Positions 5,766 through 20,217 of a DNA stretch of 64,000 nucleotides are shown here, piece by piece. The DNA lies in the NCBI GenBank assembly GCA_018267965.1, contig JAFDXK010000001.1, positions 310,001 to 374,000 of the forward strand. Reading direction: 5' to 3'. Positions within the stretch are counted from its first letter, which is position 1. The number at the start of each line of letters is the position of its first letter. The translations under genes and the position numbers were made by a program. A model generated the notes under the pieces. The model saw only the letters and a list, made by a program, of their open reading frames with translations, was not told the DNA's origin and searched no databases. This stretch comes from Bacteroidota bacterium. GTDB taxonomy: Bacteria; Bacteroidota; Bacteroidia; Chitinophagales; Chitinophagaceae.

Positions 5766-5798
5766 TTTGTTTACAATAAATATTTTGTTGTAAATTTG
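5766..5798 (+). promoter_or_regulatory. Bacteroidota-type promoter before the tail-tube candidate
   Basis: A -33 element TTTG (5766-5769) and a perfect -7 element TAAATTTG (5791-5798) are 21 nt apart, within the usual Bacteroidota spacing. Transcription would start near 5805, giving a leader of about 120 nt that contains the conserved hairpin region at 5823-5924. Confidence 0.6.
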
Positions 5799-5822
5799 CT
5801 CTAATAAATTTCCTGCCAATAC

Positions 5823-5924
5823 ATAGTCCGTCGGGGCTATTCAAAACAATACGATACAGGCTTTTCATCCTGCCTTTCTAAACGGACAAGTTCATTTTTC
5901 TTAACCTTTTAAACTTTAGAACCA
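5823..5924 (+). promoter_or_regulatory. Structured mRNA leader shared with the capsid gene
   Basis: An 18-nt hairpin ATAGTCCGTCGGGGCTAT (5823-5840) folds into 7 pairs with a GTCG loop. It is followed by TCAAAACAATACG, ACAGGC, a second small stem AGGC/GCCT, and TTAACCTTTTAA shortly before the ATG. The leader of the major capsid gene (18730-18835) has the same parts in the same order, at nearly the same distance from the start codon, with a changed but still paired stem base (U-G here, C-G there). Confidence 0.65.
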
Positions 5925-6578
5925 ATGGCTTTTTGTCCGGCCGATTGTGCCAACATTACCATTACCACCAATCAACCCGGTGGCTGCGACCTGAAAGTGC
6001 GCAAACGCAATATAGACCGTATCGGATTTTTTCCGTGCAGTGTAGACCTGCCCGCGCCTTTTACCTGCAACGGGCTACAGGCACTGGTGGATGCCAACAC
6101 GCTGACCTTCAGCAGCCCGCTTGCAAACATAGAAGTGCAGGACCCGAATTTTGAAGAGTTGCAGATAGCTGATTGCCGCCCGAGCGAACGCATGGCTACG
6201 CACCGCCTCATCACCTTTCAAGACAGGATAGCGATTGAAACAGCAGCTATTGCCGGTTCTCCCGGTGTACCAGCTAATCTGTTTTTCGACTACGATTTCT
6301 GGAAAGACAAGAAAACCAAACGCGCTATGATGCGTTACATGTTTGTGTTTTGCGATGGCAGTGTAGTAGTGCCTAAAGACGAGAACGGCAAGCCAATGGC
6401 TGCCAGCCTCGATGTGTTCCTTAGCTATGAAAGGCAGGGCAGCGGTGGCAACTCTTACATACTGGAGATAAAGAAAGGCCAACTGGAATTCAAAGGAGAC
6501 CCGCTGGATTTCAACAAACCTGAATTTACCACCAACAATGAAGTATTCTACCTCACTGATTGTGCGGGAATACTGTAA
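5925..6578 (+). CDS. Probable phage major tail-tube protein
   Basis: 217 residues, a size normal for tail-tube subunits. The start is rich in cysteine (MAFCPADCANITITT, then GGCDLKVRKR) and the rest alternates beta strands with a central FQDRIAIETAAIAG segment and a 'FFDYDFWKDKK' loop; the C-terminus has SYILEIKKGQLEFKGDPLDF. It stands alone with its own promoter and structured leader and a terminator-like inverted repeat behind it, which fits a protein made in large amounts. It shares leader architecture with the capsid gene in block B. The tail-tube label is inferred from size, expression signals and neighbours; I recognise no diagnostic motif. Confidence 0.5.
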   Translation: MAFCPADCANITITTNQPGGCDLKVRKRNIDRIGFFPCSVDLPAPFTCNGLQALVDANTLTFSSPLANIEVQDPNFEELQIADCRPSERMATHRLITFQDRIAIETAAIAGSPGVPANLFFDYDFWKDKKTKRAMMRYMFVFCDGSVVVPKDENGKPMAASLDVFLSYERQGSGGNSYILEIKKGQLEFKGDPLDFNKPEFTTNNEVFYLTDCAGIL

Positions 6579-6581
6579 TGA

Positions 6582-6677
6582 AGTGATAACGGGGAGTGCT
6601 ACGGCCAACAGCCATGATGCGCGTGCATCCGAAACATATCAACCGCGTTTGCCAATTCCATTCCCCGTTCACTTTTT
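6582..6677 (+). terminator. Large inverted repeat ending in a T-run, between tail-tube and portal genes
   Basis: AGTGATAACGGGGA (6582-6595) pairs with TTCCCCGTTCACT (6661-6673), with a 2-nt bulge, and is followed by TTTT. The 65-nt loop holds a perfect inner hairpin GATGC-GCGT-GCATC (6616-6629). Position right after the tail-tube stop and the T-run suggest a terminator or attenuator controlling read-through into the portal gene; a leader structure for the portal mRNA is the alternative. Confidence 0.55.
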
Positions 6678-6701
6678 AATTCAATCTATAACTCAATCAC
6701 C

Positions 6702-8405
6702 ATGCAATTAAACGAAGTATTAGCCATACTGAATAAAGCCCTGCGCCCCGACAGGCAAATGAATGAAACCCTGCAACGCCTGCGCGATGTGTACTATGGC
6801 ATGAGTCTGCATACTACTGGAGCGTGCCCCGCTTTTAAAGACCTGGCAGGTGGTAGTATTATTTACCCGCAAGCTTATTACGGGACTGAATACCAGCGCT
6901 TGTTCGACAAACATTTATTAAGCCGGCATCCGCGTGAGAGTGATGCTACACGCAACTGGCGTTTCAGCCAATACCGCCCGCTAACGAAAGCACCTTTTAT
7001 GCAGGTGAGCGAGATAGTGACGGGAGCAATATTTCAGGATTCTAATTATACGCTTGATGTGCATGATAATGAAGATGCGCAATACATCTGGGGCAATCAT
7101 TTCAGCGGATATGATTTGATGGGCTATTTCGGTGGTATTGGTTTTAAAAATATGATAGAAGACCCTAACGGGCTTTTCCTGCGCATACCTAACAAACCTG
7201 CTTATGAGCAAACGGCTGATAAGGTGGAAGTGGATGTTTGGTTTGTGAATACGAAAGATATGGTGTGGTGCAGCAATGCAGATTTAATTTTCAAACGAGG
7301 GGAATATGCGTATTGGGTAGATACACAAACGATATGGCGCTTTAGTTACCGTGCAGATAAGAAAGAATATTATTTGGCGAAGCAAGATGTGCAAGGCTAT
7401 TATGCACACCTGTTAGGCAGATTGCCTGTAAGCATTGCAGGCGGAGACTGGAACACACAAGGGCATTATGATAGTTTCTTCAGCAAAGCAAAAGCAGCAG
7501 CGGATGATTTTATCAGTGCATATAGCGCAGCGCAATTGGTAGATAAAGAAGCATCGCACCCGTTTATAGTAGAAGCGAGTACTGACTGTCCTGATTGTAA
7601 AGGATTGGGACAAGTGCAGCGTGATTGTGAAAGTTGCCCTAACGGATTGGAACTGATAAACTGTTACAGTTGTCATGGCACGGGACAGGTGTCAAGAAAT
7701 CCCGGTCAACATATTATTGTACCGCAGGATAAACTGAAAGACGGTTCACCGATACAAATTGTGAACCCTGATGTGAGTGTCAATACCCACCACCGCAATG
7801 TATGTGCACAAGTGATGCGGCTGATAACTGAAGCATTGCACCTGCACAAGGTAGATGAAGCGCAGAGCGGTGTGGCGAAAGCCATAGACCAGGACAGGTT
7901 GTATCAATTCATCAGCAAGATATCGAACCACGTGTTTGATAAACTGATAACTGATACACTAAAAGATATTATCGCTTACCGCCATGCTACGAGCGTGAAC
8001 GGGCAAGTGCACCCTGCACAGTACACGGTTAAAATAGTAAAGCCTATACAGTTTAAGATAAAGACATCGGCTGATTTACTGGCAGAATATGGTGAAAGCA
8101 CCAAAGCTGGTATGCCTGTATTTATTCGTCAGCGTATGGCACTGGATTTTGTAGATAAACAATATAGCGGTGATGCACTGATGCAAAAGAAAGCGCAACT
8201 GATAACGATGCTGGACCCGCTGAGCGTATTGAGCACTGATGAGTTGCTGCAACTGCGTAATGCCAATGCTATAACGGATGCAGAACTGCAATACAGCCGC
8301 AAGCTGCCTGTGCAGTTAGATGCGCTGATAAGAGAGAAGGGAGAGTATTGGTTTTTGAATGTGAGGGTGGAGGAGATAGGCAAAATAACAGAAGATATAA
8401 AATAA
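6702..8405 (+). CDS. Phage portal-like protein with DnaJ-type cysteine cluster
   Basis: 567 residues, a normal portal length. The mixed alpha/beta N-terminal half, the long helix-rich stretch about 255-285 (SKAKAAADDFISAYSAAQLVDKE), the GVAKAIDQDRLYQFISKISN helix and the late acidic/hydrophobic helices match the architecture of portal proteins, which form the dodecameric DNA gate of the capsid. Between them (residues 296-328) sits an insertion with three CxxC pairs: CPDCKGLG, CESCPNG and CYSCHGTG, closely resembling the CxxCxGxG zinc repeats of DnaJ (which has four). Six cysteines could bind one zinc plus a partial second site. Next to a restored scaffold-capsid order if the 9.4-17.1 kb insertion is removed. 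Portal assignment is from architecture and context. Confidence 0.6.
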   Translation: MQLNEVLAILNKALRPDRQMNETLQRLRDVYYGMSLHTTGACPAFKDLAGGSIIYPQAYYGTEYQRLFDKHLLSRHPRESDATRNWRFSQYRPLTKAPFMQVSEIVTGAIFQDSNYTLDVHDNEDAQYIWGNHFSGYDLMGYFGGIGFKNMIEDPNGLFLRIPNKPAYEQTADKVEVDVWFVNTKDMVWCSNADLIFKRGEYAYWVDTQTIWRFSYRADKKEYYLAKQDVQGYYAHLLGRLPVSIAGGDWNTQGHYDSFFSKAKAAADDFISAYSAAQLVDKEASHPFIVEASTDCPDCKGLGQVQRDCESCPNGLELINCYSCHGTGQVSRNPGQHIIVPQDKLKDGSPIQIVNPDVSVNTHHRNVCAQVMRLITEALHLHKVDEAQSGVAKAIDQDRLYQFISKISNHVFDKLITDTLKDIIAYRHATSVNGQVHPAQYTVKIVKPIQFKIKTSADLLAEYGESTKAGMPVFIRQRMALDFVDKQYSGDALMQKKAQLITMLDPLSVLSTDELLQLRNANAITDAELQYSRKLPVQLDALIREKGEYWFLNVRVEEIGKITEDIK

Positions 8406-8409
8406 CCGC

Positions 8410-8429
8410 GTGTTGTGAATGCATGACAC
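8410..8429 (+). promoter_or_regulatory. Hairpin just behind the portal stop codon
   Basis: GTGTTGTGAATGCATGACAC folds into an 8-bp stem (two G-U pairs) with an AATG loop, 5 nt after the portal stop. No T-run follows, so it is more likely an mRNA-stability or leader element for the gene at 8486 than a terminator. Confidence 0.4.
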
Positions 8430-8485
8430 AGGCCTCAATACAGAAAGAATGAAAACAATTATTAATTATTTAAAACAGAAAAAAA

Positions 8486-9322
8486 ATGAGTTGTTTAACT
8501 AAAAGTCAATTAAATACAACTATTGACAATGCATTTTCCGATTTGATAGATAACACAGCATTAGCCTGTGAACAAATCGATACAGCCCATCAAACAGGAT
8601 TGTGGATGATGGGAGGTGTGATAGAGCTGGCCTATAATTCAAGCACGAACACAAATACAGCGAGCTGGCAAACAGCTTATGATACCATCAATACCGGCAC
8701 ATTGACGTTTAACTCTGCCGGAGGTATCAATATTAACTATCCTACAGCTTTTAGCAGCTCTTTACCTGCTGCAATGGTGGCTACATTTAACTCGAGCTAT
8801 AATAATGCAGATGCATTGAATACAGCATCCAGTGGTTACCAGTTAAGTATGGATTATGGTTCGGGTAAGGCTGATTTGCGTTTATCAAAAAGTATTAAGG
8901 CATCGGGTATGGTCATTTATGATTCTACTACCAGCGCTTGGCATATTGATGCCTATACGCCTTTAGGGTCTTCATATTTCAGCGGCAGAACTTTTAATAA
9001 TACAACTGTTGGTTCTGCATATGCTTTGGAAATTGATATCTCAAATACCATTTTCAAAACTATAAACGGATTGCCTGCAGTAACTCCGGTACATAGTGGT
9101 ATTAATGTGGTGATACCGTATGTGGTAAACACAAATGACGCAAGTAAAGTAACTATTTGTTTTTGGGATGTTGCCTCGGGAAGCTTCCTGACCAGCCTGA
9201 CAGGTATTACAGGATTAATATTCGGTATTGATTTTGGTGCGATTGAATATGCGATTGATATGCAGACAATAGATCTGGGTTCATTTAATAAAATATCAGT
9301 ACTGGGCGTATTTAAAAAGTAA
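8486..9322 (+). CDS. Unknown protein closing phage block A
   Basis: 278 residues, no family recognised. A helical N-terminus (residues 1-45, TIDNAFSDLIDNTALACEQ) is followed by a long Ser/Thr/Asn-rich beta region such as GGININYPTAFSSSLPAAMV and YSLEIDIS-like strands. No signal peptide or membrane segment. An A-rich leader (ACAGAAAAAAAATG) precedes ATG 8486 and a hairpin terminator follows at 9380. Its helix-plus-beta layout would suit a head fibre or a decoration or tail-spike protein, but it has few cysteines compared with the other phage proteins here and could also be an accessory (moron) gene. Confidence 0.4.
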   Translation: MSCLTKSQLNTTIDNAFSDLIDNTALACEQIDTAHQTGLWMMGGVIELAYNSSTNTNTASWQTAYDTINTGTLTFNSAGGININYPTAFSSSLPAAMVATFNSSYNNADALNTASSGYQLSMDYGSGKADLRLSKSIKASGMVIYDSTTSAWHIDAYTPLGSSYFSGRTFNNTTVGSAYALEIDISNTIFKTINGLPAVTPVHSGINVVIPYVVNTNDASKVTICFWDVASGSFLTSLTGITGLIFGIDFGAIEYAIDMQTIDLGSFNKISVLGVFKK

Positions 9323-9379
9323 TAAATAGTATACGAGGTCTTTGTTGTCTGTGTTCATTCATAGATGTGGTTTTTAGAG

Positions 9380-9410
9380 GAGCGCATATTCTTATGCGCT
9401 CAATTTATTT
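9380..9410 (+). terminator. Hairpin terminator at the end of phage block A
   Basis: GAGCGCATA (9380-9388) and TATGCGCTC (9393-9401) form a perfect 9-bp stem with a TTCT loop, followed by AATTTATTTTT. It separates the phage block from the converging lipoprotein gene and may serve both strands. Confidence 0.7.
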
Positions 9411-9668
9411 TTCTTCTACTTTTTGACAACCAAAATATGTACCCATAACAGCATTCCCCGGTGCTTTACGCCCCGCTTCTATCTCTTTAATTTCTTCCTC
9501 TGTTTTATTATACAAATTGGCACTGGTATAAGTATAAACGGTTTCGTCTTCTTCTTGTGATACAACCATAACACTGCACACCCACCTGTTTTTATACTCA
9601 TATTTGGTGCAGCCATTCGATAAAGCCGATAATAATACTAATGTAAAAAGAGTTATAAGGTTTTTCAT
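9405..9668 (-). CDS. Small lipoprotein, unknown function
   Basis: 87 residues. A signal peptide with lipobox LSNGC puts the lipidated cysteine at residue 20. The mature part is short and charged (EEDETVYTYTSANLYNKTEEE) and ends with two more features: an Ala/Gly turn and CQKVEEK. It converges on the end of phage block A and diverges from the lipoprotein gene at 9738, with a 7-bp inverted repeat (AAGATAC 9687 / GTATCTT 9708) in the shared spacer that could bind a regulator. No function can be assigned. Confidence 0.55.
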   Translation of the reverse strand: MKNLITLFTLVLLSALSNGCTKYEYKNRWVCSVMVVSQEEDETVYTYTSANLYNKTEEEIKEIEAGRKAPGNAVMGTYFGCQKVEEK

Positions 9669-9737
9669 AGAAACGAATTATTACTAAAGATACCATATTT
9701 TTTCTTCGTATCTTCATAAGCCCAAACCAAGCCTTAT

Positions 9738-10538
9738 ATGAAGCGTTTATTGCCTGTTGTTATTATTCTTGCACTGCTGGCTTCTTGTGTCAAGAAGAGG
9801 AACGAAACAACACCTAACCAGTTTGTCAATTATTTTATCAAGAACCCATACATACAGCCTGTAATAGTAAGGTTGGAAGACTCTGCTACTCACAAGGTTT
9901 TCTATATAACTATACCGGGCTATAGTAAGCAACGAATACCTGACTCTGTGTTGTTTGACAAAGAAAGGGCAAGAAGGCTTTGGTATTATTACGCTGCTGC
10001 TGATTTCAGTTTTTCTAATTGGTGGCCAACTGTTTTTCCTGAATTCAGAAGAGGCATTAAAGCAATTAGCTATGAACGCGGCCGTACTTCTTATGAAGTA
10101 GTTTTAGATAAACCAGACATTCATAATTATATCAAATATTGCCTTAACGGTATAGATGGCAGTACAAAGTGGAAGGCTGTGGATGCTTATGATTCATTAG
10201 GCAAGAGTGTATGGAGTACCTTGTCTTCGGGACAGAAAACACATGAAATAACGCTTAATTACGATTATACCGGTACGCATTACAAGGCATCTCAGACAGG
10301 CGCAGCAACAACGGACTATTTTGGGTATGTATTTAATAGTTCATTGCCCGGTAATGCTGGTTATCTGTACTTATCAAGCCTAAATCTGGCTACTGTAGAT
10401 ACACCTGATTATAAATACGGGTTTGCATTGACTAACAATGAACTTCCCCAGTTTGAGGTTTTTAACACACCCAACGATACCTTGTACCTGCATGTAGGAA
10501 ATGTAGGCTGGTATTACAAAATGGCCAAAATGAAATAA
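9738..10538 (+). CDS. Lipoprotein, unknown function
   Basis: 266 residues. Signal peptide MKRLLPVVIILALLASC with the lipobox cysteine at 17, so an inner- or outer-membrane anchored lipoprotein. The mature part is beta-rich and aromatic (IQPVIVRLEDSATHKVFYITI, later LSSGQKTHEITLNYDYTGTHY), without recognised domain. It is transcribed alone: a strong terminator follows at 10562. It diverges from the small lipoprotein gene at 9668. Confidence 0.6.
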   Translation: MKRLLPVVIILALLASCVKKRNETTPNQFVNYFIKNPYIQPVIVRLEDSATHKVFYITIPGYSKQRIPDSVLFDKERARRLWYYYAAADFSFSNWWPTVFPEFRRGIKAISYERGRTSYEVVLDKPDIHNYIKYCLNGIDGSTKWKAVDAYDSLGKSVWSTLSSGQKTHEITLNYDYTGTHYKASQTGAATTDYFGYVFNSSLPGNAGYLYLSSLNLATVDTPDYKYGFALTNNELPQFEVFNTPNDTLYLHVGNVGWYYKMAKMK

Positions 10539-10561
10539 TACTTATAATATTAATGTATTCC

Positions 10562-10588
10562 CAAAAGCCTTATTCAATAAGGCTTTTG
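10562..10588 (+). terminator. Strong hairpin terminator after the lipoprotein gene
   Basis: CAAAAGCCTTATT (10562-10574) is the exact inverse complement of AATAAGGCTTTTG (10576-10588). The effective stem carries an A-run before and a T-run after it, so it can stop transcription from either side. Confidence 0.85.
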
Positions 10589-10754
10589 TTGGTTTTATGG
10601 CATCCCTAAGATAAGTAGTAATTGTAAACTGCTTGTTATCAGCTTACAAAGCCCGTGTTAAGTTGGCCTCAAAATTTCTTAAAGGGGGGTTGAACGTATG
10701 ATATTTGTGTCATCAAACGAAACAACTAAAACAAAAAACAAAAACACAATGATC

Positions 10755-11039
10755 ATGTCAGCATCTCACAACGCAGTAGCAGTCCTTTTCCCGGGCGCAG
10801 ACAACAAAGATGTTATCAAGGCTTCTGAACAATACCACATACAAGTAGTGAACCAGGAAGAATACAGCACCGTAAAAGATTATGAAAGATATTTCAAGCC
10901 ATCAAGGCGCATATTTCATAAAGATGACGTAAACCTGCTGTTTGTATTTGCAGATGGTAGTGCACAACTGGCAGACGATATGATGAGCATGAAAAATGTA
11001 ATGAATAAAATAAAAAGCTTAATCAGTAAATTGTCATAA
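10755..11039 (+). CDS. Small protein of a tandem paralogous pair, copy 1
   Basis: 95 residues from ATG 10755. An upstream ATG at 10698 is in frame but lies inside the probable -7 element (GATATTTG, 10700-10707), and alignment with copy 2 at 11205 starts exactly at 10755, so that start is rejected. Shared core: HNAVA.. (V/I).FPG, a KDY..(Y/F)FK.S(R/K)R block, then (D/V)(V/M)NLLF(V/I), ADG/PDG, and (L/M)ADD(M/V).S(M/L)K. No signal peptide, membrane segment or known motif; length and composition suggest a soluble cytoplasmic protein. The long A/C-rich leader is shared with copy 2. Function unknown. Confidence 0.6.
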   Translation: MSASHNAVAVLFPGADNKDVIKASEQYHIQVVNQEEYSTVKDYERYFKPSRRIFHKDDVNLLFVFADGSAQLADDMMSMKNVMNKIKSLISKLS

Positions 11040-11085
11040 TAGCATCTGTAGTTTGTAAAGATGCGGTTAATGAAGCCTGAAAATT

Positions 11086-11116
11086 TTGTTAGCCATCCCT
11101 TACGATACTACATTTG
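11086..11116 (+). promoter_or_regulatory. Promoter of the second small paralogue
   Basis: TTG (11086-11088) and a perfect TACATTTG (11109-11116) are 20 nt apart. The region from 'gcct.aaaattt' onward is alignable with the region before copy 1, so the duplication included the promoter. The leader to ATG 11205 is about 80 nt and contains a CCGAAGCAATTCGG hairpin (11160-11173). Confidence 0.7.
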
Positions 11117-11204
11117 ATAAATGCCCTCACCGGCTGAAAACAAAACACAAAACACAATTCCGAAGCAATTCGGAACGAAACAAAAAACATAAAAAACACA
11201 AAAA

Positions 11205-11489
11205 ATGAACACAATACACAACGCGGTAGCGATTACCTTTCCGGGTGTCAATACTACAGATATAGTAAACGCGGCAATAGCCCACGAGGCGCATATCCTT
11301 ATCAAAGAGCCGTATAACCAATCAAAAGATTATACCAAATTTTTCAAACGTTCTAAGCGTGTGATAACATCTGAAGTAATGAACCTGTTGTTCATTTATC
11401 CTGATGGTACTTCTGCCATGGCAGACGACGTATTGTCTCTGAAAAAAGCACTGAGAAAAGCAGCCATAGCAGACGGCGCTTTTGCATAA
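11205..11489 (+). CDS. Small protein of a tandem paralogous pair, copy 2
   Basis: 94 residues, clearly homologous to copy 1 at 10755 over nearly the whole length (HNAVAITFPG, KDYTKFFKRSKRV, VMNLLFIYPDG, MADDVLSLKKAL). Conserved charged and aromatic positions point to a folded domain; divergence is highest after the FPG motif (residues 18-30), perhaps the ligand- or partner-specific part. It has its own promoter (11086-11116) and a terminator (11530-11554), so the two copies are separately expressed. No family recognised. It is followed by the convergent TPR histidine kinase gene. Confidence 0.6.
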   Translation: MNTIHNAVAITFPGVNTTDIVNAAIAHEAHILIKEPYNQSKDYTKFFKRSKRVITSEVMNLLFIYPDGTSAMADDVLSLKKALRKAAIADGAFA

Positions 11490-11529
11490 GAAGTTTTGTT
11501 TGTTTTGTTGTGGTTTCGGCCACAAAGCC

Positions 11530-11554
11530 CCCCTTAGATGATAAGGGGTTTTTG
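11530..11554 (+). terminator. Terminator after the small paralogue pair
   Basis: CCCCTTA (11530-11536) and TAAGGGG (11542-11548) form a stem with a GATGA loop followed by TTTTTG. It lies between convergent genes. Confidence 0.8.
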
Positions 11555-11556
11555 TA

Positions 11557-13737
11557 TTAATCTGAATGACCCGGCAACATGATGATGAAGGTGGTGCCTT
11601 GTCCTTTTTGGCTACTGACCATTATATCTCCACCATTCATTTTGATGTAGTCGTAAGATAGTTTGAGGCCTAAACCCGTACCACGTTCGCCCATAGTTCC
11701 TTCTGTGCTGGCATGGTTATCGCTGTTGAACAGTTTATTGACCTGCGCTGCATCCATGCCTATACCGTTATCGGTGATATAAATATGGGTACTGCCCGGC
11801 AATTGTTTGGCAGTAACGCTGACCATACCGTTTTCGGGTGTGAACTTAATAGCATTAGATATAAGGTTGCGTATCACCATCTGCACCTGGTTTTTATCGG
11901 CATAAGCAGTAATGCCTTCGCGAACATCCATGCTGAGTGTGATGCTTTTTTGATTTGCGGCATCTTTGAGCATGGCAATGGTATTAGATATTTTGTTGTG
12001 AATATCTATAAGCTCTTTTACCAGTGGCTGCTCGCCTTTCATTTGTGTTTTGGCCCATTGCAGCATATTGTCGAGCATGAGGGTAACGGACTGCAGTTTG
12101 TTATTCAGCTCTGTTCTATGTGCAATAAACTCTTCGGGGGTGATGAGCTTTTCATCCAGCATCATCATAGTGCTGCTCAGTGCATTCACCGGGCTGCGCA
12201 GGTCGTGTGCCAATACGCTGAACGTGCGGTCTTTAAAATCATTCATTTCTCGCAGGCGGGTAACAACATATTCAATCTCCTGCTTTTGCAGCTCCAGTAT
12301 TTGCCTGCTCTTTTTAGTGTTCTTTAAGTTTCTGAAGAACAAATATGCTGCCACCAGGGCCAGTATGGCAGCTATGCCAAATGTGAAAAGGAGGAAGGTT
12401 TTGACTTTTTCTTTACTCTTCTCGGAGGCTTCGTTTTTCTGAAGCAGGTTAATATGGTCTTGTTTTTTTTGCAGCTCGTAATTAAACAACAACTGTTGTG
12501 CGTCTTTACTGCTTCGATTGCGTGCAATGCTATCGCGGTAAGCATGCCTGATATTTGAATAATACAAGGCATGTTTATAATCTCCTGCTTTTTCGTACGC
12601 GTCAGTAAGTTTCTCAGCAACATCAAGCACTTGTTCTTTCAGCCCCAATTGTTGCATCAGTATCATAGCGTCTTTGAGGTAAACAATACCTTTCTCGATA
12701 TTGCCCTGATGGACAAGGATATTTCCTATTCCTGCTTTGGCTATGAATACGCCTTCCATGTCCTGTAGCTTTTCGGCTACTTTCATAGATTGCTCATAGA
12801 GAGGGTATGCTTTGTCGTAAGCGCCTGTTTTTACATATACCTCAGCTATATTACCATTGATGATATTAGCCGCAAATTCATCTTTTATTTTAACGGCAAC
12901 TTCTTCGGCCATTTCAAGATAATGCAATGCCGAATCATAGTTTTTTTGTGCATCAAAAACCAATGCATAGGCAGTATAGTTATTGAGTATGCCTGTTTGG
13001 GAGTTTACTTTTTTATTAATGGAAAGCGCTTTGTTGGCATAAGCAAGTGAATTTTTATAGTCGCCCAGCCTGTAATAAACATTAGAAATGTTGGAGTAAT
13101 CACCGGCTATATCTGCCCATACACCAGGTTTAGCAGTGAGTGGTTCCTGTGTTTTAAGGTCTTCGAGATATAACTTTAAAGCATCGGCATAGTTTCCCAT
13201 TTGGTAATGCACGCTGGCTATATTGGCCAACGTTTTGGCTTTCATGTCCTTATTGCCGGTTGCTTCAGCCATTGAAAGTGAGCTGTCATAATAGTTCATC
13301 GCTTCGAAATACCTGCTGGTACGAAAGCTGATATTGCCGAGGTTGGTGAATATGACACATTCCTGCTCTCTGAGATGATGTTGGCGTGCAGCATCCAGTG
13401 CCAACCTGTTATACAAAGCAGAACTGTCATATTTGCTGCGTTCGAAATAAGAAGTGGCTATTGTTTCCAGTGCTGCTACTTTCCCTAAAGGATATTTCTG
13501 CTTTTCTGAAGCATGTAATGCCTGCAGCCCGTATAGGTATTGAGCGTCGGGGTCATTATACCTGTAGCTATTTGCCAGGGCTATTAAGAGGTTGGTCCGT
13601 GCAGTATCATTAGTACCATGTTTTTGCAAAGCACCAATAAGGCTGTCGGCTTTAGTTGCTAAAGCCTGAACGGGTAATGCCAATAATAATATAAGCGCAG
13701 TTGCAACGGCGGCAACATAGTTTGTTTGCTTCATCAA
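11557..13737 (-). CDS. Sensor histidine kinase with periplasmic TPR repeats
   Basis: 726 residues. Signal peptide 1-27; about eight tetratricopeptide repeats from 40 to 420 (for example YFEAMNYYDSSLSMAEATG, MGNYADALKLYLEDL); a coiled segment 415-445; one membrane helix 447-468; dimerisation domain with the phosphorylated His511 in FSVLAHDLRSPV; ATP-binding domain with N-box NLISNAIKFTPENG, G1 DNGIGMD (656-662) and G2 RGTGLGL (685-691). All catalytic parts are present, and there is no receiver domain. The TPR part would sit in the periplasm and sense a protein or peptide partner. No cognate regulator gene is adjacent, so it is an orphan. A TAGATTTG -7-like element lies upstream (13809-13816, minus strand) without a clear -33. 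Confidence 0.9.
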   Translation of the reverse strand: MMKQTNYVAAVATALILLLALPVQALATKADSLIGALQKHGTNDTARTNLLIALANSYRYNDPDAQYLYGLQALHASEKQKYPLGKVAALETIATSYFERSKYDSSALYNRLALDAARQHHLREQECVIFTNLGNISFRTSRYFEAMNYYDSSLSMAEATGNKDMKAKTLANIASVHYQMGNYADALKLYLEDLKTQEPLTAKPGVWADIAGDYSNISNVYYRLGDYKNSLAYANKALSINKKVNSQTGILNNYTAYALVFDAQKNYDSALHYLEMAEEVAVKIKDEFAANIINGNIAEVYVKTGAYDKAYPLYEQSMKVAEKLQDMEGVFIAKAGIGNILVHQGNIEKGIVYLKDAMILMQQLGLKEQVLDVAEKLTDAYEKAGDYKHALYYSNIRHAYRDSIARNRSSKDAQQLLFNYELQKKQDHINLLQKNEASEKSKEKVKTFLLFTFGIAAILALVAAYLFFRNLKNTKKSRQILELQKQEIEYVVTRLREMNDFKDRTFSVLAHDLRSPVNALSSTMMMLDEKLITPEEFIAHRTELNNKLQSVTLMLDNMLQWAKTQMKGEQPLVKELIDIHNKISNTIAMLKDAANQKSITLSMDVREGITAYADKNQVQMVIRNLISNAIKFTPENGMVSVTAKQLPGSTHIYITDNGIGMDAAQVNKLFNSDNHASTEGTMGERGTGLGLKLSYDYIKMNGGDIMVSSQKGQGTTFIIMLPGHSD

Positions 13738-13903
13738 GACAGCGTTCGAACATTTATATTTCGTGGCAGACAGGGGTAGGAGTTCCGTATCTTAAGTAAA
13801 CGATATTACAAATCTATGACAATTAAGTCGTATTATTTGTATATATGTTAAGTATTATAATCAGATTATAATGCGGATTGTCATGAAAAGACCCAGAAGT
13901 GTA

Positions 13904-14371
13904 TCACTTCAGTGTTTTTCTCAGTTCTGACAATACCCTTGTTTCGAAATCTTCTTTGGTTTTCCAGTCTTTCCAAAGATTATAGCCGCTGTTGAGTACG
14001 TACCAGTCGTGCAGGTCTTTGCCGCCATTTATGCTCACCAGGGCAAGTGTGGTTTTGCCTGCGCCGTCGGGGTGGGTCCAGCAATAGGCTACCTGGTTTT
14101 TATCGGGGTAGTAAAAATAAATGTCATAATATTCTGAGCTGTCACCACGGCCTTCGGGCAGGCCAAAGCTGAGCGGAGCTACATAATCGGGGTGTTGTGT
14201 TTTGAATTGTTTGATGGCATCGAGCACCTGCTGTTCGGGCCTATTGAAGGTGTATCGTTGCGCATAAGGATAAGAACCGCCCGCCATGCGAAACTGTACC
14301 TTGCGATAAACAAGCGGGGCAAGTATGACAGCAAGGAGTATGCAGGCAAAGAGGGTACTTTTTTTGCGCAT
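13904..14371 (-). CDS. Membrane-anchored protein, unknown function
   Basis: About 155 residues from MRKKSTLF at 14371; an earlier in-frame start at 14407 would add 12 residues that overlap the upstream terminator region, so the internal start is preferred. A single N-terminal membrane helix (about residues 5-24) is followed by a soluble domain with a helical part (FNRPEQQVLDAIKQFKTQHPDY) and a beta part (YYDIYFYYPDKNQVAYCW, TTLALVSINGG) ending WYVLNSGYNLWKDWKTKEDFE. It resembles small membrane-tethered proteins of Bacteroidota of unknown role. It sits between a histidine kinase and an ELWxxDGT protein on the same strand. Confidence 0.5.
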   Translation of the reverse strand: MRKKSTLFACILLAVILAPLVYRKVQFRMAGGSYPYAQRYTFNRPEQQVLDAIKQFKTQHPDYVAPLSFGLPEGRGDSSEYYDIYFYYPDKNQVAYCWTHPDGAGKTTLALVSINGGKDLHDWYVLNSGYNLWKDWKTKEDFETRVLSELRKTLK

Positions 14372-14415
14372 AATGTTTGATTGTATGTACAAGATACGGA
14401 ATTGCAAAACAAAAA

Positions 14416-14432
14416 CCCCTCGGTGTGAGGGG
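14416..14432 (-). terminator. Terminator of the ELWxxDGT gene
   Basis: CCCCTC (14416-14421) and GAGGGG (14427-14432) form a stem; on the minus strand it is followed by TTTTTGTTTT, so it ends the transcript of the gene at 14460-16016. Confidence 0.75.
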
Positions 14433-14459
14433 CTTTGAAAAAAATAATATGAGATTGTT

Positions 14460-16016
14460 TTAATGCACCATCTTGCCTCTTGCCATTACATAGCCTTTGT
14501 CATCCATAATGCGGAAGAAGTAATTGCCAGCCGGTAAATCTGCAACCGGAATGCTAATGGTGTTGATACCCGCATTGTATGGTTTATTGCCACTTGTATA
14601 TACTTGCCTGCCACTTGCATCTATTAATGCCACCTGCAGTGTTTGTGCTTTTTGCATATTCAGTTCAAGGTTGAAAACATTATTAGCAGGATTAGGATAT
14701 GCTTTGAGTGTAATATCGTTTTCCGGAACTATGATATGTGATGGTGGTATGGTAGTATCTATTAAACGGTAAAGTTTAGAAGGAGGGGAGGGAGGAAGGG
14801 AACCCATGCCTGTAGGAGACGCTAAAAATAGAACGATATTGTTGGCAAGTACAAAATTGTCTGGCCAGATATCATCGGGCTTGTAGGAGGTCATGTTTAA
14901 CAACCTTACTGTATCTGTGGTACTGTAAACACATACTTCGGTTCCCAAGCCGGGCATATAGCCTGTAGTTATTAATTTGCCATTGTATTCCACACCGTTG
15001 TTGTCTTCATAATATACAGAATTGTTCAAAGTTGTTACAGTGCCTGTTAATTGATTGTATTTGCAGCCACCAATAGCACCACCTATGCCGGCAGTATCAC
15101 ATCTGAAGTAAACTTCGTTATTATAACCTTTAAGCGGGGAAACATATGCTTGCGAAAGGCCAGTTAAAACGTTCAAAACATTAGTGTTCGGGCTTCCCGC
15201 ACAGGTAAGTTGTTTCAGATTTGTGCCGTCGTATTCTAACAGCGCCCTGATAGCCTGAACGTATGTTTTAGAACCGACCATATACAATTTATTATTATAG
15301 ACATAATGAAGCCTTACACCATAGTATCCCTGCATCTTGGTATGAATTCCGGTAGCTGGGTCGAAAATATAGCTCATGCTTGAATCGAAATAGTTGGTGT
15401 ATGCCAGTTTGCCATTGTATACGCAACTGCTGGTTGCCATTATCTGCATACTTCCGTTTGTAATAGCTGTGGCAGTATTAGTGCCGGGGTCATAAACATG
15501 TAAACGGGCATAGTATGTTGTTACTGATGTAGTAGAGTCCGCATAAGCGTCAAAGTATATCTTACCATTAATAACCCGCATCATTGCAGGTGAAGAACCC
15601 GGTTTGCCGGGAAGAATATCTAAAACCATAGATGGCGGATTGGTGCCATCATATTTCCACAGCTCTATGCCATGTATGCCATCGTTGGCGGCAAAATATA
15701 ATAGCCCGTTCAGATAACACATGCGGTCATAAGAGTAACCCCCCATAGGGCTTAATACCGCATCGCCATGGCCGGGGTTGATGTCTGCCACCATCACAGG
15801 CGGATTAATACCATCTGCTTTCCACAGTTCTGCTCCGTGAGCAGTATCGCTGGCATACAGATAGAAAGTGTTGTTGAAAGCATGAAGGTCTGATGTGAAA
15901 TTGTTTTTAACATACGCAGGCCCTGTGGTGTCATTAAATCCATACCTGCCGTATGTATACTGTGCGTTTGCGTGAACGCAGATAAAGAGCAGCAATGCTG
16001 CTAATAGGTGTTTCAT
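14460..16016 (-). CDS. Secreted ELWxxDGT-repeat protein with T9SS sorting domain
   Basis: 518 residues. Signal peptide 1-18 (ending ANAQ). Two tandem ELWKxDGxNPP units (residues about 60-140: AELWKADGINPPVMVADINPG, then ELWKYDGTNPPSMVLDI) of the ELWxxDGT repeat family, followed by further blade-like units with 'YNGKL' turns that likely form a beta propeller. The last 75 residues carry a type A T9SS sorting domain (KAYPNPANNVFNLEL, GRQVYTSG, LPAGNYFFRI, GYVMARGKMVH). It should be exported by Sec, then secreted or surface-attached through T9SS. Substrate or partner unknown. Followed by a minus-strand terminator. Confidence 0.85.
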   Translation of the reverse strand: MKHLLAALLLFICVHANAQYTYGRYGFNDTTGPAYVKNNFTSDLHAFNNTFYLYASDTAHGAELWKADGINPPVMVADINPGHGDAVLSPMGGYSYDRMCYLNGLLYFAANDGIHGIELWKYDGTNPPSMVLDILPGKPGSSPAMMRVINGKIYFDAYADSTTSVTTYYARLHVYDPGTNTATAITNGSMQIMATSSCVYNGKLAYTNYFDSSMSYIFDPATGIHTKMQGYYGVRLHYVYNNKLYMVGSKTYVQAIRALLEYDGTNLKQLTCAGSPNTNVLNVLTGLSQAYVSPLKGYNNEVYFRCDTAGIGGAIGGCKYNQLTGTVTTLNNSVYYEDNNGVEYNGKLITTGYMPGLGTEVCVYSTTDTVRLLNMTSYKPDDIWPDNFVLANNIVLFLASPTGMGSLPPSPPSKLYRLIDTTIPPSHIIVPENDITLKAYPNPANNVFNLELNMQKAQTLQVALIDASGRQVYTSGNKPYNAGINTISIPVADLPAGNYFFRIMDDKGYVMARGKMVH

Positions 16017-16113
16017 AAGTTATACATGTATTTGTGTAATGCAAAGTTAGGGCAGAATGTATATATAATATGTATGATAGTTGTCAACCTCGTGTGGATA
16101 AGGCTAACCACCA

Positions 16114-16166
16114 CTCCTAAAAACAGGAGGGGAATCTCCTTTAGTTGGTAACTTAGATAACTAAAG
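16114..16166 (+). promoter_or_regulatory. Alternative hairpins in the leader of the acetyltransferase gene
   Basis: AGGAG (16125-16129) can pair with CTCCT on its left (16114-16118) or with CTCCT on its right (16136-16140), but not both. A third stem, CTTTAGTT (16139-16146) / AACTAAAG (16159-16166), overlaps the right-hand option. Such mutually exclusive stems suit an attenuator or riboswitch-like switch, but the stems are short. Confidence 0.3.
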
Positions 16167-16180
16167 AACTATAATTATCA

Positions 16181-16654
16181 ATGGAAATAAGACGGATAAC
16201 AACCGAAGAAGACATAGATACCTGCGCAGAGTTAATGAACATATCTGACCCGTGGATTACGTTACAATTCGATAAGCAACGTTGCCTGATGAGCCTGAAA
16301 GGTGATTATAAAGAATTGTACGGCGCTTATATAGATGGCAATGTTGCAGGGTTTGTCATTATACAATTGTACGGAACATTGCGGGGGTATATACAAACTG
16401 TTTGCGTAAAGGAACAATATAGAGGTAAGGGTATAGGTACGGCATTGCTGAAGTATATCGAAGAACGTATTTATGAGGTATCGCCCAACGCGTTTATCTG
16501 TGTCTCTTCTTTTAACCCCGAAGCGCATAAACTATATACCCGCATGGGTTTTGAATATGTGGGCACGCTCAAAGACCATTTTATACGCGGATATGATGAG
16601 ATAATATTGCGCAAAAGCAAAGGGCCGTTTGCTGAATTTGTGGCGGTGAAGTAG
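16181..16654 (+). CDS. GNAT-family N-acetyltransferase
   Basis: 157 residues, full length for the family. Motif A with the acetyl-CoA pyrophosphate loop is clear at residues 79-87 (QYRGKGIGT, matching Q/R-x-x-G-x-G/A), preceded by the beta4 strand GYIQTVCV. Motif B appears as ICVSSFNPEAHKLYTRMGFEYVGTL, with the usual N-x-x-A-x-x-x-Y and GF. These proteins move an acetyl group from acetyl-CoA to an amine, which may be an antibiotic, a small metabolite or a protein N-terminus; the substrate cannot be told. It lies alone between opposite-strand genes in the stretch that separates the phage blocks. Confidence 0.88.
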   Translation: MEIRRITTEEDIDTCAELMNISDPWITLQFDKQRCLMSLKGDYKELYGAYIDGNVAGFVIIQLYGTLRGYIQTVCVKEQYRGKGIGTALLKYIEERIYEVSPNAFICVSSFNPEAHKLYTRMGFEYVGTLKDHFIRGYDEIILRKSKGPFAEFVAVK

Positions 16655-16712
16655 GGTTAATCTACGAGGTAGGGGGAGTATGGTATGCTGACAAGTGTTA
16701 GACCGCCAGTAC

Positions 16713-17114
16713 TTAGTGTAATATTGAGTAGATTAGAAATATAACAAAAACTATAGCGATCAATATATTAATCAGGATGTCAATCCTCATTTTAGGTATC
16801 GAATGTTCAGGATAGTCAATATCCCACTGACCTTTGTTTGCAAAATCTAATAATACTTTAGGAGTAACGGGAATTTGTGTTACTCGTTCGTTAGGCGGTT
16901 TGAAAAAAAAGCTACCTGTGTTATTCCCTTCTTCGCAAGTATGAAAATACCATAAGTATCTATCCATATCTACACTGAATTTTTTTGAATAAGTGCCAAT
17001 CATTTCATGAAAGTCATCACCTGTTACACCACTCTTGAATAAGTCAGTGTCTTCATTCAGTTGCAAGCCTGTTAACTCTTCTAAGTGCTCAATTATATCT
17101 GAGATAGAATACAT
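16713..17114 (-). CDS. DUF1493-like membrane-anchored protein
   Basis: 133 residues. The first 60 residues resemble acyl-carrier-like DUF1493 proteins: a helix, the DTDLFKSGVTGDDFHEMIGTY segment in which an acidic pair takes the place of the carrier serine, then FSVDMDRYLWYFHTCEEG. The C-terminus has a strong membrane helix (about 108-130, IDILINILIAIVFVIFLIY), not standard for every family member. With the usual phosphopantetheine serine absent, it is probably not an active carrier. In enterobacteria the family is mostly uncharacterised. It is the last gene before the promoter of phage block B. Confidence 0.55.
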   Translation of the reverse strand: MYSISDIIEHLEELTGLQLNEDTDLFKSGVTGDDFHEMIGTYSKKFSVDMDRYLWYFHTCEEGNNTGSFFFKPPNERVTQIPVTPKVLLDFANKGQWDIDYPEHSIPKMRIDILINILIAIVFVIFLIYSILH

Positions 17115-17208
17115 TGTAACTCCAATTTACTAAACCTTTTTTATCAATACAATTCCTCTCCGAATTCACCAAATCATTAACAACAAAAAAAGTTTTTTAA
17201 AATAATTT

Positions 17209-17237
17209 TTGTTATTTAAAAATAGGTTGTACATTTG
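17209..17237 (+). promoter_or_regulatory. Promoter of phage block B
   Basis: TTG (17209-17211) and a perfect TACATTTG (17230-17237) are 18 nt apart, preceded by an A/T-rich stretch. The start of transcription would be near 17244, about 20 nt before ATG 17265. Confidence 0.75.
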
Positions 17238-17264
17238 TGCAAGTAAACCGAATCACACACCACC

Positions 17265-17624
17265 ATGAAACTGAAAAACTACTCGGTAAAGGACTCCCGT
17301 ATTATACAGGATAACGAGGGGAAATCTCCTGACGACTTACTGGAACTGGGCTTATCGCAACGCGGCTACCGCCGTATGCTGGAAGATAGTATTGATATCA
17401 CACAGGCTAAGATAGAAGATACTCCTGCTTATGAAACAGGTGCCGTATTGCAACCATTGAAAGTAGAAGCCATCAACCTGCAATCTGTTACGGCACAATA
17501 TACCGACCAGCGCAAAAGCGTAACGCTGCACAACAAACGCAGTGGTCGCACATTGCAAATGGCATACAAAGCAGCTAACCTGCTGGCAGAAAAATATCCA
17601 CGCGAATTTGAAATACTGGCATAA
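17265..17624 (+). CDS. Small phage protein, first gene of block B
   Basis: 119 residues, acidic and basic patches, no membrane segment. Middle part TPAYETGAVLQPLKVEAINLQ looks beta-strand rich, the end (RTLQMAYKAANLLAEKYPREFEIL) is a helix. No family recognised. Its stop overlaps the next start (TAATG at 17622-17626), so the two are translationally coupled. Position before the scaffold and capsid would fit a head-assembly helper; this is inference. Confidence 0.5.
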   Translation: MKLKNYSVKDSRIIQDNEGKSPDDLLELGLSQRGYRRMLEDSIDITQAKIEDTPAYETGAVLQPLKVEAINLQSVTAQYTDQRKSVTLHNKRSGRTLQMAYKAANLLAEKYPREFEILA

Positions 17625-17962
17625 TGGCAAAGAAGAAGAAAATGGAAACAGAACAGGAAGAGGTCATTGTTCCTGTAACAATAGAGCAAACGATTGTTGC
17701 ACCTGCACTACAAATATTAGATGTGCCGCAGGGATATGTATTGCTGGTGTCATTACAAACAGATGGCAGTGATAAGCAGGGCAGCGAATTTTTCTACCCC
17801 GAAAGAAGTTATCGCAAGTATTACGGTGATGAAACCAAATTCAGGGTAAAAGCAATCAACGAATTAACCGACATAAACACTATACACTATGAAAATCTCA
17901 GTAGAACAAGCCAACATATTATTCAGCGCACTACCGGCAGATGTAGCAGTTGTGGCAGATGA
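17624..17962 (+). CDS. Small phage protein overlapping the scaffold gene
   Basis: 112 residues. A lysine/glutamate-rich start (MAKKKKMETEQEE) leads into a compact beta segment (VPVTIEQTIVAPALQILDVPQGYVLLVSL) and a FFYPERSYRKYYGDETKFRVKAIN stretch. The last 25 residues are encoded in the 74 bp that overlap the start of the scaffold gene (17889-17962) in another frame; this part is low-complexity and basic and may be non-essential read-through. No family recognised. It could be a head-completion or decoration protein. Confidence 0.45.
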   Translation: MAKKKKMETEQEEVIVPVTIEQTIVAPALQILDVPQGYVLLVSLQTDGSDKQGSEFFYPERSYRKYYGDETKFRVKAINELTDINTIHYENLSRTSQHIIQRTTGRCSSCGR

Positions 17963-18719
17963 GCATGAAGCAGATGAAACAACAGATGTAGAATCGCTTG
18001 CGTTATCATTAACCAATAGTATCGCTACCAACCTTCGCCCGCAGTTGGAACAGGAAATGCGCCCGAGCATAGAAGGGAGTTTTATGGCCAGGTATTTGGG
18101 CACGCTCCGCTCGATAGTGTCGCGTGAGTTTAACATCAATCGCCGCAGGCTGGATAAGCTAACGATGGAAGAAATAGTAGCGCAATGCAAAACAGTACAG
18201 GTTCCGCCACATGAGGAGCTACCTGAAAAAACAGAAGCTGCAGATGAAGAACTGAAAGCAGCGTACGAATTGAAATATGCAGAGATGAAGGCTAGCTATG
18301 AGCAAATGATGCAGGAAGAACGTAATAAGTATGCGCAGAAAGACATAGCTACGCGTTGCCTGAGCATGATAGAGAAGTTGCCACGCAAAGGTGGTGATTT
18401 ACAGGAGCAGGCAGATATGCTACGTTACAAAATGCAGTCGGCTTACGAAGTGCGTTATAATGAAGCAACAAAGAAATTAGAATTTTATAAAGAAGGGCAG
18501 CAGGTGGTGAGTGAAAACAACCAACCGCTGAACGATGAAGATTTTGCCCGCAACTGGGCAGAGAAAGCCGGAATACTGGTAAATGATACCCGCCATATTT
18601 TGCCTGCTGATGTAAAGGCAGGACAACAGGGGCATTATGGTACAGGTGTCATCAACCTGAACGGCGACACGCAAAACCCTACAGCAATGGATGCCATTGC
18701 AGCATGGGTAGAGCAGTAA
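17889..18719 (+). CDS. Probable phage capsid scaffolding protein
   Basis: 276 residues directly before the capsid gene, the usual place of scaffolds. Residues 15-60 are acidic (DEHEADETTDVES). Residues about 85-165 are strongly helical and probably coiled coil (EELKAAYELKYAEMKASYEQMMQEERNKYAQKD). The C-terminus is Ala/Gly-rich with a short terminal helix (AMDAIAAWVEQ) like the capsid-binding tail of scaffolds. No protease signature (no GxSxG) is seen, so it is a scaffold without a fused maturation protease. Function is inferred from position and helical character. Confidence 0.6.
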   Translation: MKISVEQANILFSALPADVAVVADEHEADETTDVESLALSLTNSIATNLRPQLEQEMRPSIEGSFMARYLGTLRSIVSREFNINRRRLDKLTMEEIVAQCKTVQVPPHEELPEKTEAADEELKAAYELKYAEMKASYEQMMQEERNKYAQKDIATRCLSMIEKLPRKGGDLQEQADMLRYKMQSAYEVRYNEATKKLEFYKEGQQVVSENNQPLNDEDFARNWAEKAGILVNDTRHILPADVKAGQQGHYGTGVINLNGDTQNPTAMDAIAAWVEQ

Positions 18720-18729
18720 TTATTTTTTC

Positions 18730-18835
18730 ATAGCCGGACGCAGCTATTCAAACAATACGTTTACAGGCATATCTCCGTTGCGCCTTAAGCAACATTAGCA
18801 ATCCAATTTGTTTAACCTATTAATCAAAAAAAGCC
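18730..18835 (+). promoter_or_regulatory. Structured leader of the capsid mRNA
   Basis: ATAGCCGGACGCAGCTAT (18730-18747) folds with the outer five pairs perfect. It is followed by TCAAACAATACG, ACAGGC, an AGGC/GCCT stem and TTAACCTATTAA before ATG 18836. The order, spacing and several sequence blocks match the tail-tube leader at 5823-5924, although the two genes are 13 kb apart. Confidence 0.65.
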
Positions 18836-20167: not shown

Positions 20168-20185
20168 TTGTCCTATCTCTGATTG

Positions 20186-20217
20186 AGTTCCCCGTAGTTA
20201 GTAGCGGGGAACTTTTA
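20186..20217 (+). terminator. Terminator after the capsid gene
   Basis: AGTTCCCCG (20186-20194) and CGGGGAACT (20205-20213) form a 9-bp stem followed by TTTTA. It should limit read-through so that the capsid is made in excess over the downstream proteins. Confidence 0.85.

Follow-up and report, generated by a model that had tools for sequence, protein, structure and literature searches.

A pseudoknot leader supported by compensating changes ahead of two virion-type genes in a phage-like cluster of Chitinophagaceae

The leader of ompA carries a 5′ stabilising stem near the mRNA end, ahead of a highly expressed gene. Some riboswitches use compact H-type pseudoknots with A-rich third loops; the preQ1-I and SAM-II riboswitches are H-type pseudoknots of this kind, with a short stem, pairing of the loop to a downstream segment and an A-rich linker. 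In the gene 32 operator of bacteriophages T4 and RB69 a 5′ pseudoknot is followed by a less structured stretch of UUAAA/UAAA repeats over the start (PMC535899, in its accessible text), and the T4 gene 32 mRNA, the most stable of all T4 mRNAs, is processed by RNase E at a site 71 nucleotides (nt) before its start codon (PMC3014915, accessible part). The Bacteroidota are a phylum without Shine–Dalgarno sequences, with a promoter consensus whose refined form is TAHHTTTG, as given in the accessible part of PMC6847099. Here, we describe the 5′ leaders of two genes in a 64-kb stretch (G000:C5:310001-374000, hereafter the window) of a 3.74 Mb Chitinophagaceae genome. The genes encode a putative tail-tube protein (TT) and a putative major capsid protein (MCP). 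The leaders are best explained as members of one cis-acting RNA family, in which approximately 70–150 nt separate hairpin and start codon and the start region is rich in UUAA.

An earlier note on this DNA had described 5823-5924 and 18730-18835 as twin structured leaders, and the motifs, equal hairpins and spacing that it listed are read where it placed them. The hairpins, each of 18 nt, occupy 5823-5840 and 18730-18747. The start codons, at 5925 and 18836, follow 102 and 106 nt after the first hairpin positions. Both leaders contain TCAAA(A)CAATACG, ACAGGC, AGGC/GCCT and TTAACCT.TTAA, the last of which occurs in the window, on both strands, solely at 5901 and 18812; the pairing-preserving change from U-G to C-G between the two stems is also present. 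The local alignment of the two leaders scores 67, far above the 24.1 ± 4.6 (maximum 48) of 2000 dinucleotide shuffles, none of which reaches 67, and the three pieces listed with scores above 40 among 4397 other 116-nt pieces of the window each overlap the second leader. A blastn search of the genome with the first copy, which gave 14 matches up to E = 10 without the second copy among them, weighs against the observation of a shared leader. Folded alone, the hairpin region has z = −2.51 in the first copy and −0.68 in the second. As to a transcription attenuator, which would have a terminator or leader peptide within the leader, no ATG occurs in either window leader (ATG was the only start looked for).

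The hairpin is conserved throughout the genus with the genes that it precedes. The MCP gene and the TT gene were each found in eight of 59 genomes, the source genome included and all within the genus (the MCP copy of G008 is split in two pieces), and the hairpin stands before all 16 of these orthologous copies. The TT orthologues of the seven other genomes are 91–95% identical to the window protein, and MCP identity is 71–83% across six full-length relatives. Most MCP leaders have a GACG-type loop and five of the eight TT leaders a CGGUAU loop; the 5-bp stem encloses a spacer of 6 or 8 nt. An ATG within the hairpin is common to five TT leaders, and the frames that follow it differ in length and end, which argues that there is no conserved leader peptide. 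A covariance-model search was run with a model, R1, of a 38-nt core trained on the 16 leaders; 25 genomes were searched, with at most 150 first-look candidates scored in each. R1 recovers all 16 training places, with E up to 4.8e-4, and finds nothing else below E = 0.1 among the candidates scored. Its matches fall in nine of the 15 genus genomes, solely before TT or MCP genes (both copies in seven genomes, MCP alone in G013 and TT alone in G011). We treated matches with E between 0.11 and 5 as chance; of these, the best three (in G040, G043 and G041) were read at unrelated-looking genes, for which no family search was made.

This narrow distribution bears on the idea of a metabolite riboswitch, in which a small molecule would bind the pseudoknot described below near its A-rich linker. 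The compact H-type fold with an A-rich third loop is what some riboswitches use, but in the 25 genomes the element stands solely before TT and MCP genes among the candidates scored, the whole window gives no Rfam match at the gathering score, and a pattern scan with a loop limit of 8 finds no terminator-like site inside either window leader. We regard a riboswitch as very improbable.

Two sets of compensating changes support the structure. In the hairpin (16 rows, 12 of them distinct), four of the seven pairs are changed on both sides, and the covariation score is 0.260 versus 0.124 in shuffled alignments, with none of 500 reaching it. The pairing of the loop with the segment downstream of the linker was scored in ten leaders (eight distinct rows) chosen for a common register, namely the eight genus MCP leaders, the window TT leader and the TT leader of G172, a genome of a second genus (g73). 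In this loop helix 96.9% of cells are paired and three of the four pairs are changed on both sides, a number reached by seven of 500 shuffles; the score is 0.536 versus 0.164 (0/500), helices slid along the alignment give at most 0.321, and the count of further pair types is matched by 60 of 500 shuffles. Hairpin and loop helix together are 96.6% paired and score 0.448 versus 0.179 (0/500). The set omits 17 of the 27 leaders: the four leaders of G147 and G168, two further genomes; six g73 leaders, four of them MCP and two diverged TT; and seven TT leaders, of which two (G010 and G011) were misplaced by MAFFT and five have a shorter loop in a shifted register (GUAU pairing with AUAC or GUAC). 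Over all 27 leaders the summed loop complementarity is 276 versus 226 ± 12, a comparison in which the relatedness of the leaders overstates their independence. G-U exchanges are among the compensating changes, which fits pairing in RNA rather than in DNA. The loop and downstream segment form an H-type pseudoknot in the 5′ leader, a structure that compensating changes support on comparative rather than chemical evidence.

The same covariation bears on a recent duplication, in which one leader would have been copied to the second gene with no function of its own. The two copies in G147, identical over 25 nt, fit such an event, but it is made unlikely by the changes in hairpin and loop helix, and most genus MCP and TT leaders form separate lines that each keep the pairing, so that the pair looks old and under selection. 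This is the least probable of the explanations that we considered.

The earlier note was right about the hairpin and the AGGC/GCCT pairing, and its structure has to be extended in two respects: the hairpin loop is engaged in the pseudoknot just described, and AGGC/GCCT belongs to another pseudoknot as one of its stems, closing a loop whose 3′ part pairs immediately downstream. In MCP leaders the second stem takes the forms GTTGC/GCAAC in the window, CCCGC/GCGGG in G172 and TCCGC/GCGGA in G087, G235 and G282. These five rows, of which the last three are near-identical and in which one cell is a gap, are 100% paired with three double changes, a result reached by two of 500 shuffles. The core of the family is a stem of 4–7 bp whose loop pairs with CGUU or a covarying partner, with an A-rich linker that mostly begins UUCAAA, UUAAAA, UUUAAA or CUAAA; the second pseudoknot is found in part of the leaders.

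The element stands in different transcriptional settings. In all eight genus TT leaders a TAnnTTTG begins 29–32 nt upstream of the hairpin, with TTTG at −33 spacing in six of the eight; the TT promoter of G010, TATGTTTG, departs from the refined consensus in the accessible part of PMC6847099, as does the site TAGTTTTG of the MCP operon in G013. The 500 nt before the start are free of TAnnTTTG in all 12 MCP leaders (eight from the genus and four from g73) and in the two G168 leaders. A TAnnTTTG stands 33–35 nt before gene 17265 or its orthologue in all five genomes examined, and this promoter-like site of the operon makes the MCP leader intercistronic. A long hairpin lies behind the TT gene in six of eight genus genomes, with a T-run in part of them, and a GC-rich hairpin behind the MCP gene in all eight genomes examined (six from the genus, two from g73), the T-run of G087 being weak; both hairpins come from folds without control.

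In G147, 20 kb of sequence contain four operator-promoters, of which just two, those of the MCP and TT genes, are followed by the leader. A palindromic, operator-like GGTCAA.TTGAC stands directly before the −7 element at L112 (G147:C13) 7523, 9099, 12549 and 15048 (−), and is likely to be the site of a cluster-wide transcription regulator. Because the genus MCP leader lies within an operon and two of the G147 operator-promoters are leaderless, the leader appears to be a layer separate from transcription that acts on RNA. That the inverted repeat and its flank are instead a transcription-factor or packaging site in DNA, with the RNA pairing incidental, is improbable. The hairpin is an inverted repeat, two copies could serve one regulator, and G147 has its palindrome nearby; against this, the compensation includes G-U pairs and a loop-to-linker helix, the spacer within the 5-bp stem varies, the genus element lies downstream of the TT promoter and distant from any promoter at the MCP gene, and the G147 operator is a separate sequence that is also found where there is no leader. 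There is strong support for the earlier proposal that two unrelated virion-type mRNAs have an RNA element in common: its presence at 16 of 16 genus copies, the compensatory and G-U changes and this independence of promoters. The features of the window are collected in the table.

Features of the two leaders and their genes in the window (window positions)
Feature	Position	Strand	Basis
Bacteroidota-type promoter of the TT gene, TTTG ... TAAATTTG	5766..5798	+	TAnnTTTG position and consensus in the accessible part of PMC6847099
CCTG, possible alternative helix with CAGG 5857-5860, TT leaders only	5812..5815	+	by eye
Pseudoknot I, TT copy: stem 5823-5829/5834-5840, loop GTCG 5830-5833 with CGAT 5852-5855, A-rich linker 5841-5851	5823..5855	+	covariation
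Pseudoknot II, TT copy: AGGC 5858-5861/GCCT 5872-5875; second stem of 3 bp, TCC 5868-5870/GGA 5884-5886	5858..5886	+	weak
TTAACCTTTTAA, UUAA-rich start region, TT	5901..5912	+	one of two window occurrences
TT gene, putative tail-tube protein, 217 amino acids	5925..6578	+	named from gene order; compare prophage L097
Long imperfect hairpin and T-run between TT and portal genes	6580..6675	+	minimum-energy fold, no control; missed by pattern scan (loop limit 8)
Portal gene (context)	6702..8405	+	phrog_7376, E = 2.4e-17
Promoter-like site of the operon ending with the MCP gene, TTTG ... TACATTTG	17208..17237	+	TAnnTTTG placement
Pseudoknot I, MCP copy: stem 18730-18736/18741-18747 with one C.A mismatch; loop GACG 18737-18740 with CGTT 18758-18761	18730..18761	+	covariation
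Pseudoknot II, MCP copy: AGGC 18765-18768/GCCT 18782-18785 and GTTGC 18777-18781/GCAAC 18789-18793	18765..18793	+	second stem varies in g73
TTAACCTATTAA, UUAA-rich start region, MCP	18812..18823	+	other of two window occurrences
MCP gene, putative major capsid protein, 443 amino acids	18836..20167	+	named from gene order
Terminator-like hairpin and T-run behind the MCP gene	20185..20216	+	fold; missed by pattern scan (loop limit 8)

Leaders of the same family occur outside the genus. Of 394 sampled genomes of the family, 12 gave an MCP gene and 11 a TT gene, distributed over the genus, g73, G147 and G168; within g73 the MCP gene is present in G087, G172, G235 and G282 and the TT gene in three of these. 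On 269 kb of sequence from other lineages the two best R1 matches are the TT and MCP leaders of G172 (E = 0.011 each), the next having E = 0.76, and the leaders of G087, G147 and G168 do not rank above this next match. The TT and MCP genes of G172 are ~46 kb apart and keep matching leaders (L092, L115; G172:C4:1802654-1849616). In G147, which represents a third genus and whose MCP and TT proteins are 41% and 37% identical to those of the window, both genes are preceded by GCGCC-UGUGCGAA-GGCGC-CUAAA; the genome contains two copies of this leader when up to three mismatches are allowed, and the loop UGCGA pairs with a downstream UCGCA. The G168 forms before both genes are suggestive candidates (GAAAC/GUUUC, p = 0.13; GGUUGU/ACAGCC, p = 0.05). 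Absence from relatives that keep both genes, which the earlier note had named as the adverse outcome, was not seen within the genus; beyond the genus, the G087 and G282 TT leaders are too diverged for clear recognition and are uncertain, and L097, a prophage contig from IMG/VR, has an MCP leader with a similar-looking hairpin and UAAAAA, which was not counted, and no recognizable TT twin. A sample of 396 genomes of the order added four weak MCP relatives without a clear leader, and by eye none is recognizable before the distant MCP relatives in G106, G489 and G550. A look-alike in G571, CAATCAATACGT, was not counted: exact 10-mers find no second copy of it in the 47.9 kb fetched, and there is no TT match.

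Two observations concern tRNA sequences beside MCP leaders. In G147 a tRNA-Met gene (L088:2668-2740, −) lies between the promoter and the MCP leader, directly before the latter, and 3′ processing of this tRNA may leave the leader near the mRNA 5′ end. At L097:9845-9900, before the MCP leader, a T-arm and part of an acceptor stem give the look of a tRNA remnant by eye, where ARAGORN makes no call. A tRNA-like reading of the window leader itself was dropped; among 12 loci scanned a tRNA gene was found solely in the two that overlap the G147 MCP leader.

Conservation, pairing, promoter independence and restriction to TT and MCP genes in the genomes searched can be read directly from the sequences, and from them we infer an RNA that works after transcription to give discrete, strongly expressed TT and MCP mRNAs. 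We give about even credence to the fuller statement that the leader is a post-transcriptional module yielding discrete, well-expressed mRNAs for two virion proteins, perhaps with a shared binding protein. In such a scheme the pseudoknot of the genus TT mRNA would lie close behind the presumed transcription start, an endonuclease cut upstream in the operon would leave that of the genus MCP mRNA near a new 5′ end, and hairpins lie behind both genes. A shared protein, encoded by the cluster or the host, might read the loop and linker and exert coordinate control, as gp32 does on T4 gene 32.

A number of results weigh against this scheme or the structure on which it rests. The folding energy of the whole leaders is ordinary (z = −0.31 and −0.52), the loop complementarity of single sequences is mostly within chance (p < 0.05 in two of 27 leaders), and the shuffle controls contain no correction for the relatedness of the rows. 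The linker is not A-rich in G013 and three g73 MCP leaders. The AGGC/GCCT stem is missing in six of the eight genus MCP leaders; these six have two hairpins with loops that look complementary (ACCCUG/CAGGGU; UACCC/GGGUA in G010), as read by eye and uncounted. For TT the second pseudoknot is weak, with 90.7% of cells paired in six rows and one double change that 77 of 500 shuffles reach, in an alignment (A15) where a shift of the window TT row counts against the stem. TAnnTTTG is missing from the 500 nt before each of the three g73 TT genes, so that closeness to a primary 5′ end is not general. RNase J was not found above the cut-off in any of the 15 genus genomes (the search was aimed at RNase J and not at RNase E/G), which makes a plain shield against 5′-to-3′ exonuclease unlikely. 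Lastly, the letters of the loop and linker are kept beyond the needs of pairing, which suggests a bound ligand rather than a mere stabilizer.

Conserved loop and linker letters, together with two targets per genome, are also what would be expected of a translational operator, in which one RNA-binding protein of the particle system covers both pseudoknots and the UUAA start regions and represses until assembly, by gp32-like autogenous or cross-gene binding. The layout resembles that of the T4 gene 32 operator, as far as the accessible text of PMC535899 describes it, and UUAA occurs on average 1.56 times in the last 35 nt of the 27 leaders versus 0.72 times in 32 other window genes. The richness is modest, with at least two occurrences in six of the 32 background genes and none in three of the 27 leaders, and no repressor candidate turned up, no search having been aimed at one. 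We consider such an operator possible and lean away from it.

The names of the two genes are those of the earlier note and rest on gene order. The cluster runs terminase, DnaJ-like protein, tape measure, hub, TT, portal, MCP and later genes, and in it the terminase large subunit (L027:1638-3035; Terminase_3, E = 8.3e-51) and the end of the tape-measure protein (window 9-461; phrog_25241, E = 5.5e-11) are recognizable. No family search gave a significant match for the TT or MCP protein, the best weak match coming from a distant TT relative (E = 0.0037, a family of unknown function); profile searches of the Protein Data Bank (PDB) returned nothing for MCP and one chance-level row for TT (E = 0.79), and the AlphaFold models of the two, with mean pLDDT of 32.2 and 34.3, were of unusable quality. 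The capsid and tail-tube assignments of the earlier note thus have the support of the neighbouring portal, terminase and tape-measure genes and lack a direct family match.

The 'related phages' in which the earlier note proposed to search are not the best frame, the cluster being chromosomal and syntenic within a Chitinophagaceae genus. The ten named-record loci with the MCP gene belong to Chitinophagaceae bacteria LGM1 and IBVUCB1 and eight metagenome-assembled genomes, one labelled Taibaiella. Three of the four relatives examined, G002, G004 and G007, share the gene order, interrupted by other genes, and the fourth, G013, has lost part of it. Among the phage-type genes stand a histidine kinase with TPR repeats, a Por-secretion-tail protein and a DUF6607 protein. 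Genes near C5:273260, upstream of the cluster, are found on the matching flank in G007, in the same orientation, and in G013, in the opposite one, which hints at one old chromosomal site; in the 80 kb fetched from G004 and G002 they did not turn up. No integrase was detected among the nearby proteins scanned for families, a subset of those present. Searches of 50,697 phage records with window 1-25000 as DNA and with the portal, G168 MCP and G147 MCP gave no match (the window MCP and TT were not queried), and scans of viral contigs with the genus-level alignments and a distant TT alignment found nothing. A distant MCP alignment found the single relative L097, which has genes of matching size and order and an MCP 37% identical to one relative.

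The cluster, which spans G000:C5:291635 to window 25703, is a candidate domesticated particle system. A DnaJ-domain protein (L027:12630-13289) has a matching place in the clusters of G002, G004, G007 and G013 and is possibly an assembly chaperone, and the adjacent small genes at window 10698-11039 and 11205-11489 look paralogous and are kept across the cluster. The setting is possibly a domesticated prophage or gene transfer agent (GTA). Like these, it has genes for head, tail and packaging on the chromosome, syntenic across a genus and interspersed with host-type genes; it differs in being known from genes alone, and one IMG/VR prophage contig also contains relatives of these genes. The accessible part of PMC12946183 describes a GTA-like element of Faecalibacterium and lateral transduction in Bacteroides and names no Bacteroidota GTA, and in a literature search that left most subscription journals uncovered we found no report of a Chitinophagaceae GTA or of a Bacteroidetes GTA from a domesticated prophage, nor any earlier report of a pseudoknot leader or riboregulation on phage capsid genes. 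It is a doubtful extension of our reading that a domesticated Chitinophagaceae particle system, possibly a Bacteroidota GTA, has a dedicated trans-acting RNA-binding factor, which recognizes a double-pseudoknot leader on two unlinked mRNAs and no others and so sets the ratio of capsid to tail tube.

The pseudoknot leader described here is new, has comparative support and is shared in trans by two virion-type genes. It makes directly testable how phage-like systems overproduce a few structural proteins in a phylum without Shine–Dalgarno sequences, and it can serve to mark a family of phage-like clusters in chromosomes. Its topology is that of the preQ1-I and SAM-II riboswitches, from which it differs in its letters, its genes and the lack of an Rfam match. 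With ompA-type hairpins it shares a stem presumed to lie near the mRNA 5′ end, and differs in being a pseudoknot whose loop and linker letters are conserved and which was found solely ahead of two genes in a phage-like cluster. Among known designs the T4 gene 32 operator comes closest; we claim no membership, and the two may work alike. Both have a 5′ pseudoknot on a phage-type mRNA, followed in T4 by a less structured, UUAA-rich start region, to judge from the accessible text on that operator (PMC535899), and here by one in which UUAA is modestly enriched, about twofold over the 32 other window genes. Strict self-binding in the manner of gp32 cannot hold for both mRNAs, since the two downstream genes encode different putative virion proteins. 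Unlike the T4 operator as described there, the present leader stands on two unlinked, likely virion genes, has a second pseudoknot in part of its members and operates in a phylum without Shine–Dalgarno sequences.

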